Assembly (NCBI GenBank): GCA_003167255.1
Contig: PMTR01000074.1
Location: 1-64,000 of the forward strand
DNA length: 64,000 bases
Origin: Bryobacterales bacterium
GTDB taxonomy: Bacteria; Acidobacteriota; Terriglobia; Bryobacterales; Bryobacteraceae
Reading direction: 5' to 3'
Made by a program: the position numbers and the translations under genes. Every line of letters starts with the position of its first letter. Positions within the stretch are counted from its first letter, which is position 1. This document shows positions 1,667 to 6,378 of this stretch, piece by piece. Under the pieces are notes generated by a model. That model saw nothing but the letters and a program-made list of their open reading frames with translations, had not been told where the DNA came from and did not search any database.

Positions 1667-3865
1667 CTACTTCTGGTCGAACAGATCGGCTCGGTGTACC
1701 CGCTCGCCTTTGAAGACCACCAGCGAAATTCGCTCCGTGGCGGAGATGTCTTGCAGCGGATTGCCGTCCACCAGCAGAAGATCCGCGTCCATCCCCTCGC
1801 GAATGGCGCCGATGCGGTTTTGCGCACGCAACAGCTTCGCGGCGTTGCCGGTGGCGGCCTGGAGCGCCACCGCGGCCGGGATGCCGGCTTGCACCCAGAG
1901 TTGCAACTCGTGGTGCATTGAAGGGCCGTCGAAGACCAGCGGGTTTCCGGAATCGCTGCCGGTCACCAGCGGAACCCCGGCCTTCCACGCGCGCAGCAGG
2001 TTGGCGCGGGCGTGATCCAGTGCGCCCGCGAAAATCGCGGACTTGGCCGCATCCACGCCTTGCCCCGATGCCAGAAACTCGCGCGTGGACTTCAGAATCC
2101 CCGCGGGCACCACTTGCTCGACTAGCGAGTTGTTCACCGCGTCGGCCTTGCCGGCGTAGAATTGCGAATAGGCTTCACCCACCGCCAGCGTGGGGTCCAG
2201 ATAGATGCCTTCCCGGGCCATTTTTCGCAGCACCGCGTCGGGGATGGCGTCGCGCCAGGAGCCGTGCTCCACCGAGGCGGTGCCGAAATCCACGGCATCG
2301 GCGACATCCCGCGAATCGCCGGTGTGCGTGGCCACCGGCAGATTTTGCGCGCGGGCTTCCTCGGCCACGGCGCGCGCCAGCGCCACGTCCATGCGGTTAT
2401 ACAGCATCCCCTCGCCGAATCCGGCTTCCAGAATTATCTTGATGCCGTCCACGCCCGCGGCTTTCAGCTCGCGCACCTGCGCGCGGGCTTCCTCAACCGA
2501 TTTGGGAATGCGCACCAGTTGCGCCTGTATGTTGTCGCGCAGCGCGGCCGGGACGTGCGCCGTGAACTCCGTGCCGTGTCCGCCTTCGGCCGTGAACATG
2601 GGGCCGCAAATGAACAGCGCCGCCCCCAGTTTGCTGCCGCTCGCGATCTGGGCCCGCACTTTGCGGGAGGCGTCCAGCCCGTCGCCCGTACTGCGCGCGC
2701 CGGTGACGCCGCTGTAGAGCAGCGCGGCGGCGTTGCGCGGCATGGTCTTGTCCACGTTGTAGTCTTCGTTGTTGCTCGAAATGCCGCCGGGCGCGGAGAG
2801 ATGTACGTGCGCGTCGATCAGGCCGGGCAGCAGCGTCTTGCCGGAGCCTTCCACCACTTCGGCGCGAATCTTTTCGGGATCGGGCCCGGCGCCGTCGAAG
2901 ACCCCCGTGATCTTGCCGTCGTGCACCAGCACCGAGGCGTCCTCTTTCACCGTGCCGTCGCCAACGAACACTCGCGCGTGGCGGATCAGAAACGTGCCGG
3001 AGCGCGCCAGGTCGCGATACAGAGCTTGGTTTTCGCCGATATGTTCTCGGGTATACGCGCGGATGCAGCCCATCACCAGGAAGGGCGCCAGCACCGCCAG
3101 CACCCACAGGCGGTTACGCGGCGGGATCTTTTCTTCCTTCTCCCAGCGAAACAGCTTCACCGCCAGAAACAGCCCCACCACCGCCGTCAGCAGCAGCGCG
3201 CCCACCGCCGGCAGGCTGTTCAGGATGGTGTGGTTGCGGAAGAAGATTCCCTGAAAGCCCGTCACCAGGTAAGACGCCGGCATGAATTCGCCCACGGTCT
3301 GCGCCCACACCGGCAGAATCGACGCGGGAATCGTAGTGCCGCTCAGAAACAGCATGGGCATGTAGAGCAACTGGATCAGGATGTTGGCTTCCGCCATGGT
3401 GTTAGCCAGGGCCCCCAGAATCAGCCCCAGCGCGCGGAAGCTGCACACCCCGATGGAGGCCATCAGGAAAAGCGAAAACCAGTTCCGCGGCATCGGCATG
3501 GCGTAGAGAAAGTGCGCCAGCCCCACCAGCAGCACCAGCACCGGCAGGTACAGCAGCCACCCGCTCACCATGGAGGCCACCAGGATGGGCAGCGGCGTAA
3601 TCGGCGTCACTTTGTAGCGCCGCAGAATATTGGCCTCGCGGTCCTGCACGCTGCGCATCCCCGCGCCCCACAGGCCGTTGCCCAGGATTCCCATCGTCAG
3701 CACCGTGCCCACGAAATACGCGATGCCCTGCCCCGTGCCGGCATGGAACATCTCCGCGAACGCAAAGAAGAAGATCAGCGGGAACAGGTAATTGAAGAAC
3801 AGCACCGAGCGGTCCCGCATGGTGAGCTGCATGTTGCTCTTGAAGAGTGCGTAGTAGGATCTCAT
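1667..3865 (-). CDS. ABC-2 permease fused to amidohydrolase
   Basis: A 732-residue two-domain protein. Residues about 1-240 are an ABC-2 type exporter permease with six predicted membrane segments (near 22-40, 48-70, 92-122, 130-158, 162-187, 213-238). A basic loop (EKEEKIPPRNR) and a seventh hydrophobic segment (about 253-271) follow. Residues about 290-732 are a metal-dependent amidohydrolase of the imidazolonepropionase/prolidase-like group: HxH at 353/355, candidate carboxylated Lys476 (GIKI), His514 (ATHTG), His534 (VEHGS) and Asp638 (GSDSG). The single ORF has no internal stop. If the permease half is N-in/C-in, the extra span would place the hydrolase outside the cytoplasm. The start overlaps the ATPase gene by 4 bases (ATGA), so the two form one transporter operon. 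Substrate unknown. Confidence 0.88.
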   Translation of the reverse strand: MRSYYALFKSNMQLTMRDRSVLFFNYLFPLIFFFAFAEMFHAGTGQGIAYFVGTVLTMGILGNGLWGAGMRSVQDREANILRRYKVTPITPLPILVASMVSGWLLYLPVLVLLVGLAHFLYAMPMPRNWFSLFLMASIGVCSFRALGLILGALANTMAEANILIQLLYMPMLFLSGTTIPASILPVWAQTVGEFMPASYLVTGFQGIFFRNHTILNSLPAVGALLLTAVVGLFLAVKLFRWEKEEKIPPRNRLWVLAVLAPFLVMGCIRAYTREHIGENQALYRDLARSGTFLIRHARVFVGDGTVKEDASVLVHDGKITGVFDGAGPDPEKIRAEVVEGSGKTLLPGLIDAHVHLSAPGGISSNNEDYNVDKTMPRNAAALLYSGVTGARSTGDGLDASRKVRAQIASGSKLGAALFICGPMFTAEGGHGTEFTAHVPAALRDNIQAQLVRIPKSVEEARAQVRELKAAGVDGIKIILEAGFGEGMLYNRMDVALARAVAEEARAQNLPVATHTGDSRDVADAVDFGTASVEHGSWRDAIPDAVLRKMAREGIYLDPTLAVGEAYSQFYAGKADAVNNSLVEQVVPAGILKSTREFLASGQGVDAAKSAIFAGALDHARANLLRAWKAGVPLVTGSDSGNPLVFDGPSMHHELQLWVQAGIPAAVALQAATGNAAKLLRAQNRIGAIREGMDADLLLVDGNPLQDISATERISLVVFKGERVHRADLFDQK

Positions 3866-4785
3866 TCGCGCAGGCTCTTTCCGGTGAGCTCGATGAAAGC
3901 CTCTTCGAGCGACGGCCGGCGGATGTGGATGTCCGCCAGCTCGATGTTGCGTTCATCCAGCCACTTCACCATCCCGACAATCGTGCGCGCCGGCCGGCTC
4001 GAAACCACCGCGATCTTCACCCGCCGCTCGTCCAGCGTGGTCTTCACGGCTCCCTCCCACTCCGGCAGCGTGGTCTCCGCCAGCGGCTCCGCGCATTCGA
4101 TCTCGATGGTGGAGTGCGCCAGCGTCTTCTCCTGAATCTGCCGCGGCGTGCCCAGCGCGATGATACGGCCTTCGTCCATAATGGCCACGCGGTCGCACAA
4201 CTTCTCGGCCTCTTCGATGTAGTGGGTGGTCAGCAGAATGGTGCGCTGTTCGTTGCGGAGGTCCTGCACCAGCTCGTGGATTTCCAGGCGCGCCTGCGGA
4301 TCGAGCCCCGCCGAAGGCTCGTCCAGAAACAGCACCTGCGGGTCGTTGAGCAGCGCCAGGGCCAGCGCCAGCCGCTGCTTCTGCCCGCCCGAGAGCTGCG
4401 TGTAGAACGCTTCGCGCTTCTCCCAGAGCTGCAGGCGCTTCAAAAGCTGAGCCGCGTCCACCGTGCGGGTATAGAGCGCGCCGAACAGCTCCATGGCCTC
4501 CCGCACTTTCATTTTGTCCGGCAGCCGCGTGGATTGCAGGCACACCCCCACCCGGTCCTTCAACCGCAGTGTTTGCACTTCCGGATCGCAGTCCAGCACA
4601 GACACGCGGCCGGCCGAGCGCGTGCGCAGCCCTTCCAGGATTTCCACCGTGGTAGTCTTGCCCGCGCCGTTCGGACCGAGCAGGCCGAAAACTTCGCCCG
4701 CGCAGACCTGGAAATCGATGCCCTGGACGGCGGCTAGAGAGCCGTAGCTCTTCTGCAAGGATTCAACCTGGATGGGATTGTCCAC
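3862..4785 (-). CDS. ABC transporter ATP-binding protein
   Basis: Nucleotide-binding subunit (307 aa) of an ABC-2/drug-exporter type transporter. It has Walker A GPNGAGKTT, a Q-loop region, signature LSGGQKQR, Walker B VLFLDEPSAGLD and the H-loop LTTHY. The last ~90 residues form the accessory domain usual for the DrrA/CcmA-like branch, ending in the RRPSLEEAFIELTG motif. It is the first gene of the operon and is translationally coupled to the permease-amidohydrolase fusion, which is its obvious partner. Confidence 0.92.
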   Translation of the reverse strand: MDNPIQVESLQKSYGSLAAVQGIDFQVCAGEVFGLLGPNGAGKTTTVEILEGLRTRSAGRVSVLDCDPEVQTLRLKDRVGVCLQSTRLPDKMKVREAMELFGALYTRTVDAAQLLKRLQLWEKREAFYTQLSGGQKQRLALALALLNDPQVLFLDEPSAGLDPQARLEIHELVQDLRNEQRTILLTTHYIEEAEKLCDRVAIMDEGRIIALGTPRQIQEKTLAHSTIEIECAEPLAETTLPEWEGAVKTTLDERRVKIAVVSSRPARTIVGMVKWLDERNIELADIHIRRPSLEEAFIELTGKSLRE

Positions 4786-5804: not shown

Positions 5805-6101
5805 TCACGCTTCCACGGCCTCCCAGCGGCGCGCAAGTTCCCGGAATGCTTGCTCATGGGAGGGCCATTCGTGTAGTGTAGCGGGATCGAAGTCCGCTCC
5901 GTTCGGCCACACTAGTGTCTCCACTTCAGGATCGATTCGCACTCGATTAAACAACTCGAGACCGCGCAGCCGGCCGTACAATTCGCCCGCCAAAACTGGT
6001 TGAAAATCGATGGTCTGTTCCGAGTTGTCATCGAAGCGAACACAGAGCGTGTACGGACCAACGATGTCGAATGACCGGACTCGATAAATCGGATGACTCA
6101 T
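5805..6101 (-). CDS. DUF2442 domain protein
   Basis: A 98-residue cytoplasmic protein matching the DUF2442 pattern: an N-terminal beta-rich part (YTLCVRFDDNSEQTIDF), then LAGELYGRLR and VEWPNGADFDP-like strands (here LVWPNGADFDPATLHE). The molecular role of the family is not established. It starts 7 bases after the DUF4160 gene. DUF4160 and DUF2442 commonly occur as adjacent small genes and have been treated as a possible toxin-antitoxin-like pair, a reading that fits the surrounding TA remnants but is inference here. Confidence 0.8.
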   Translation of the reverse strand: MSHPIYRVRSFDIVGPYTLCVRFDDNSEQTIDFQPVLAGELYGRLRGLELFNRVRIDPEVETLVWPNGADFDPATLHEWPSHEQAFRELARRWEAVEA

Positions 6102-6108
6102 AAACGGC

Positions 6109-6378
6109 CTACTTCAACGGCTCAATCGGTGCTGGGCTCCGGCCTTCCTGCAGGCGCTGCCAATCGGCTAATAACTCGGTTTCATGCAATTCCGCCCACG
6201 CTTCGACCAGCCGCCGCTGCCTCCTCAGCAAGGAACCGCCGATTAATTCCACCGGATCAAAACTGAAGATACCGACTTCGCCTTGGTAATATGCGTGGAA
6301 GTGGGCCGCGTGATGTGGCGATCCCGGTTCAGCAAACATACGGATAATGATCCCGAAAAACCGGCTAAGCTCCGGCAC
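6109..6378 (-). CDS. DUF4160 domain protein
   Basis: An 89-residue protein of the DUF4160 family: PELSRFFGIIIRMF, then the hallmark HHAAHFHAYYQGE, then a helix with LLRRQRRLVEAWAELHETELLADW. The start is GTG at 6376-6378 and no good ribosome site is visible. It precedes the DUF2442 gene by 7 bases on the same strand, so the two are almost certainly co-transcribed. Function unknown; candidate component of a small two-gene module. Confidence 0.78.
   Translation of the reverse strand: MPELSRFFGIIIRMFAEPGSPHHAAHFHAYYQGEVGIFSFDPVELIGGSLLRRQRRLVEAWAELHETELLADWQRLQEGRSPAPIEPLK

Follow-up and report, generated by a model that had tools for sequence, protein, structure and literature searches.

Among the systems closest to the locus described here are the PCAT and HlyB transporters, exporters that carry a fused hydrolase domain of the C39 or C39-like type, which is dead in some members and, in HlyB, has lost catalysis (PMC8277102). 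That domain is a cytoplasmic cysteine protease at the N-terminus of another transporter fold, whereas the domain of the present locus is C-terminal, predicted to lie on the outer face and a metallo-amidohydrolase; the N-terminal C39 or C39-like domain that defines the PCAT group has no C39 counterpart among the Pfam matches of the ORF. The FtsEX-EnvC complex, in turn, is an ABC complex acting through a degenerate metallohydrolase fold on the outer face, namely the LytM domain of EnvC, the partner of FtsEX, which is devoid of zinc ligands (PMC11627006), but it consists of separate proteins, its FtsX is of another ABC type, and it functions in cell-division signaling rather than export. We regard both parallels as analogies of logic and not as membership.

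The DrrAB/NodIJ-type ABC-2 exporters share with the locus an ATPase-permease pair composed of a DrrA-like ATPase and a DrrB-like permease, but the present pair falls under the equivalog or subfamily cut-offs of NCBIfam (249 bits for the ATPase against TIGR01188, drrA, cut-off 312; 36.8 bits for the permease against TIGR01247, DrrB, cut-off 223), and its permease bears a seventh span and a C-terminal hydrolase. Fusions of an ABC-2 permease to an M1 aminopeptidase also combine such a permease with a metallohydrolase, albeit of another hydrolase fold and with another permease organization; no paper on them was found in the open-access literature. The hydrolase itself shares its fold (TM-score by target about 0.75-0.84) and full metal-ligand set with a subgroup comprising Xaa-Pro dipeptidase/prolidase, the Arg/Lys carboxypeptidase Cc2672, ochratoxinase and ADH3 (2qs8, 2p9b, 3mtw, 4c5y, 8ihq), but is only 22-27% identical to these enzymes and is fused to an exporter. 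The best Foldseek matches (2qs8, 2p9b, 8j85 and 3mtw) score 0.81-0.84 by target, and the domain reaches 163.1 bits against NCBIfam XaaProDiPepCaul (NF051886), under the cut-off of 500, and is not an equivalog. The open-access papers searched include none on this fusion and no characterized counterpart, in keeping with the preliminary description of the locus, which knew of no characterized system of such design.

The window is a stretch of 64,000 nucleotides from a Bryobacterales bacterium (contig PMTR01000074.1), and its features are listed in Table 1. The fused protein is encoded by a single ORF of 732 codons with an ATG start and no internal stop. Pfam assigns ABC2_membrane (residues 4-209, E 2.8e-21), ABC2_membrane_3 (residues 45-236) and Amidohydro_1 (residues 344-723, E 2.3e-30), each above its curated cut-off; the ABC-2 type permease profile (PF01061/PF12698) is passed with 76.4 bits against a cut-off of 26.9, and the paired ATPase gene overlaps, its stop sharing 4 nt (ATGA) with the permease start. 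The ligand set of the amidohydrolase superfamily (PF01979), HxH, K, H, H and D presented on the barrel, is complete in the ORF (6/6); the lysine equivalent to K476 is carboxylated in the amidohydrolase family. AlphaFold2 models the whole 732-residue chain from 79 aligned sequences with a pLDDT of 92.1 and a pTM of 0.88, and resolves TM7 as helices 249-258 and 260-272 with a kink near P261, followed by a helix at 274-288 and the hydrolase from residue 291. The usual ABC-2 layout, which is not strictly defining, has six spans with both ends inside; the permease of the window has seven helices. Together, the ORF, the Pfam matches, the six ligands, the conserved TM7 helix of the AlphaFold2 model and the overlapping gene bear out what had been proposed at first, one uninterrupted frame holding a permease, a genuine extra span and an amidohydrolase with all of its metal residues, coupled to an ATPase.

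Table 1. Features of the exporter locus, in positions of the window.
Feature	Position	Strand	Basis or detail
Fused permease-TM7-amidohydrolase ORF	1667..3865	-	732 aa
Six-span ABC-2 permease, residues 1-238	3152..3865	-	Pfam ABC2_membrane/ABC2_membrane_3 and AlphaFold2 helices
Inner basic loop, residues 239-248, invariant FRWE motif 239-242	3122..3151	-	Homologue alignments
TM7, residues 249-272, invariant W254, P261, G266	3050..3121	-	Alignments and AlphaFold2
Polar connecting helix, about residues 273-290	2996..3049	-	AlphaFold2 helix 274-288
Amidohydrolase domain, residues 291-732	1670..2995	-	Amidohydro_1 and Foldseek
HxH metal ligands H353 and H355	2801..2809	-	
K476, lysine ligand	2438..2440	-	
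H514 metal ligand	2324..2326	-	
H534 metal ligand	2264..2266	-	
D638, catalytic/metal aspartate	1952..1954	-	
Stretch deleted independently in many relatives, about residues 420-557	2195..2608	-	Lineage-specific deletion ends
ABC ATPase (DrrA/NodI-like), 307 aa, GTG start	3862..4785	-	ABC_tran E 7.6e-29

Because dozens of genera carry the same full-length, uninterrupted architecture at 45-93% identity, an artefact, an assembly error or a chance ORF is ruled out, and the conservation of fusion and TM7 across genera is what the preliminary description had named as support for a real unit. Named relatives of the protein belong to the Bryobacterales (Candidatus Solibacter, Sulfopaludibacter; 74-93% identity), and a match is present in 162 of the 237 genomes of the window's family, most with the same fusion; the 141 fused proteins read here are essentially all of that family (Bryobacterales, Acidobacteriota). 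Relatives in the class outside this family mostly possess the permease alone (family f7), and the fusion is found in further groups (L104/L105, L230 and L153/L243). Permease-TM7-CIA30 fusions are displayed by family f6, L109, L112, L116 and L117, and a permease with both amidohydrolase and CIA30 by family f6, L104 and L105. In other classes, L230 (G814) encodes a 905-aa permease-TM7-amidohydrolase-CIA30 protein, while L153 and L243 encode permease-TM7-amidohydrolase; the phylum search scored two candidates per genome, and the spread outside the class is underestimated. In the plasmid collection no match spans most of the fusion, the listed matches covering the hydrolase only. A homologous ATPase gene lies directly upstream of the permease in nearly all related loci. 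As to separate permease and amidohydrolase genes, raised at the outset as evidence against the unit, close relatives have none except a frame-shifted copy (L089), whereas adjacent separate genes do occur in distant relatives of another class (L232, L256, L265, L266).

Several smaller observations accompany this survey. The CIA30 domain (PF08547) recurs on the predicted outer face of, or beside, ABC-2 permeases, with or without an amidohydrolase (L104, L105, L109, L112, L116, L117, L230, L231, L232, L256, L265). On the permease tree, two permease-only loci of another family, f11 (L107, L108), group among the members of the window's own family, suggestive of horizontal transfer and hydrolase loss. 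One genome (G141) has a second ABC ATPase gene after the fused ORF, slightly overlapping its end (L071:3684-4445, + strand). In the window, neighboring DUF2442 and DUF4160 genes (5805-6101 and 6109-6378, both on the - strand) form a pair that recalls a toxin-antitoxin or similar small module. A lipoprotein anchor at TM7 (LVMGC) was ruled out, C267 not being conserved, and inspection by eye of the region around residues 240-290 revealed no plausible start accompanied by a ribosome site from which a separate product might be made.

The extra span was initially taken for a linker that arrived with the fusion, a view that the alignments overturn. The FRWE-loop columns are invariant or nearly so in intact and barrel-deleted homologues and in most permease-only relatives as well; W254, P261 and G266 show no variation across the aligned intact and barrel-deleted members, some permease-only rows included; and the stretch LFRWE...AKLW...LAPFL.MG aligns in permease-only relatives that are 33-54% identical over the permease. 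Since this stretch is shared with permease-only relatives, TM7 belongs to the permease subfamily as an unvarying element, present with or without the hydrolase. Its C-terminal end is followed, by lineage, by nothing, by CIA30, by an amidohydrolase or by both. The hydrolases of family f6 and of the window's family (f1) have different origins by their tree (AU test p 2e-54 against one clade, the group having been chosen after the first tree), and because the permeases of these two families are close, the C-terminus of the TM7-bearing permease has, on this phylogenetic evidence, received a hydrolase at least twice. The AU test does not reject a common origin of the hydrolases of f1, L230 and L153/L243 (p 0.40-0.45), so a first fusion of ancient date, with the hydrolase lost later, may also account for the permease-only lineages. 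A derivation of TM7 from a membrane anchor of the hydrolase itself, considered in view of the tandem genes of L232, was rejected, TM7 being common to f1 and f6 permeases whose hydrolases differ in origin.

The six-ligand set is intact in 83 of the 141 fused proteins, and ligands are lost in 58. Longer forms (644-735 aa) without at least one ligand account for 26 of the 141, and 15 of these are without three or more; in one such protein (L118), 65% identical to that of the window, all six positions are replaced (DRARRG). In 32 of the 141, the barrel has been shortened by a deletion of about 100-138 residues, the ends of which vary by lineage (420-528, 423-526, 434-535, 421-551 and 434-557). On a quick tree of the permease columns only, with SH-aLRT as its sole support, the loss of three or more ligands versus the intact state requires 17 changes, of which well-supported branches force at least 11, while barrel deletion requires 12 (at least 7) and any ligand loss requires 21 (at least 13). 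These changes are read as losses because the regaining of a deleted barrel is implausible. Genomes that are almost complete, in 1-3 contigs (G156, G198, G243, G456), likewise contain degenerate copies. A DJ-1/PfpI gene, absent from the window, lies immediately or a short way upstream of the ATPase gene in L048 (8464-9012) and 21 other loci of the family, beside intact and degenerate hydrolases alike. As a marker of degenerate copies it was dropped, a wider search having placed it beside many intact copies too; in well-flanked loci its raw association with degenerate copies is 19/24 versus 3/17, with too few pairs for a test on independent pairs.

The inactive copies counted here are open frames. 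For the part beyond TM7, barrel-deleted pairs give a pairwise Nei-Gojobori dN/dS of 0.09-0.32 and longer ligand-less pairs one of 0.06-0.23, compared to 0.06-0.15 in intact pairs, with synonymous sites partly saturated in some pairs. Longer dead copies keep the residue at 14% of ligand columns versus 78% of other conserved columns, while barrel-deleted copies keep 76% of the remaining conserved columns and retain H353, H355 and D638 in 13, 22 and 3%, respectively. Conservation stays strong in the segment HGP...E..LWV.AG and in the C-terminal part, and a confident model of a barrel-deleted member (L100; pLDDT 87.6) still matches the amidohydrolase fold with a TM-score by target of about 0.5. 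By these measures, the inactivated domains are under purifying selection and not decaying. With a probability of roughly 60%, we consider the C-terminal region an accessory domain facing outward, where it would bind or relay a substrate or partner, catalytic in some lineages, including that of the window, and a pseudoenzyme elsewhere. What the sequences themselves show is the fused ORF with its TM7, the partner ATPase, the conservation of the unit, and a domain that was inactivated repeatedly and is under purifying selection in the inactivated copies.

The preliminary description held export and hydrolysis to be the conserved purpose of the unit, which is not supported because the active site has been lost in at least 11-17 lineages with the domain kept. 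The idea that the conserved function is the processing of the exported molecule outside, with the inactive copies as decaying remnants, would accommodate the 83 intact ligand sets and the resemblance of the intact domain to active prolidases and carboxypeptidases, but it is unlikely given that the inactive copies are open frames with low dN/dS, have lost the active site alone and are common to whole genera, and that the independent losses are so numerous.

Against the accessory-domain reading, a dead domain could merely stabilize the permease, and the domain is dispensable in the four loci that have lost it entirely (L061, L106, L107, L108). A passive structural cap, or a module for dimerization or stability of the permease devoid of any substrate role, would fit a domain that is swappable with CIA30 or nothing and permease-only relatives that manage with TM7 alone, but we hold it distinctly improbable, for it leaves unexplained why these amidohydrolases have been joined to ABC-2 exporters by several routes, in fusions of at least two origins and in separate operons. 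In the latter, four loci of another class (L232, L256, L265, L266) present adjacent genes in the same order for an ATPase, a six-span ABC-2 permease and a separate amidohydrolase with CIA30 (the Pfam check for CIA30 covered the first three, L265 scoring under the cut-off). L231 has the order amidohydrolase with CIA30, ATPase and ABC-2 permease, and in L241/L242 an ATPase comes after two amidohydrolases and a permease match lies farther along. With such operons beside the fusions, the link between these amidohydrolases and ABC-2 exporters is recurrent, and the operons lend independent support to a functional link as well as to an outer location.

The same operons bear on topology. The separate hydrolases of L232, L256 and L265 begin with a hydrophobic signal or anchor (the mechanical start of L266 is too far upstream to judge), which supports an extracytoplasmic hydrolase. 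TM7 is a hydrophobic segment of 24 residues with a best 19-residue mean of 1.9; its flanking K+R in fused members average 5.8 before and 5.5 after, so the positive-inside rule is not decisive alone, while the flank charges in permease-only relatives favor N-in/C-out. The order of the spans, the signals on separate homologues and this charge bias together suggest that TM7 places the hydrolase on the outward, periplasmic side, and the outer-face location put forward at first is favored, as a prediction, by the AlphaFold2 helix, hydropathy and these signals or anchors, the charge rule across TM7 being neutral. That TM7 does not span and the hydrolase acts inside before export, as the similar charge balance in fused members and the helix kink near P261 might allow, is hardly credible given that TM6 must end inside, that TM7 is long and hydrophobic, that permease-only flanks favor C-out and that the separate hydrolases carry N-terminal hydrophobic segments.

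The accessory-domain reading may be put as a mechanism. With export assumed as the direction of transport from what is known of the ABC-2 family, the ATPase and seven-span permease would form a complete exporter of this type, the permease as a homodimer, as the ABC-2 fold implies, with the amidohydrolase fold on the periplasmic side. The essential task of the domain would be non-catalytic: beside the exit of the homodimer, and driven by the ATPase cycle, it may receive, bind or gate the exported compound, or dock a partner. In lineages with intact ligands, probably including that of the window, it would additionally hydrolyze an amide or peptide bond in the exported compound in the manner of a prolidase or carboxypeptidase; elsewhere it would live on as a pseudoenzyme, for which the dead C39-like domain in HlyB and the dead LytM domain in EnvC serve as analogies.

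On somewhat better than even odds, these loci represent a new class of ABC-2 exporter whose conserved, C-out TM7 docks domains on the outer face, and to which an amidohydrolase was added on more than one occasion, later to become a selected, non-catalytic component of transport more than ten separate times. If so, a topologically distinct family of seven spans with an outward C-terminus would be added to the ABC-2 exporters, and a single transporter would display a natural series that runs from an active enzyme through a mutated one and a half-deleted barrel to no domain at all. Its substrate would be approachable, since active members should hydrolyze something near the cargo of the pump. The family would constitute a natural experiment in the passage from an enzyme to a non-catalytic machine part, with more than ten parallel inactivations and intact sister lineages for comparison.
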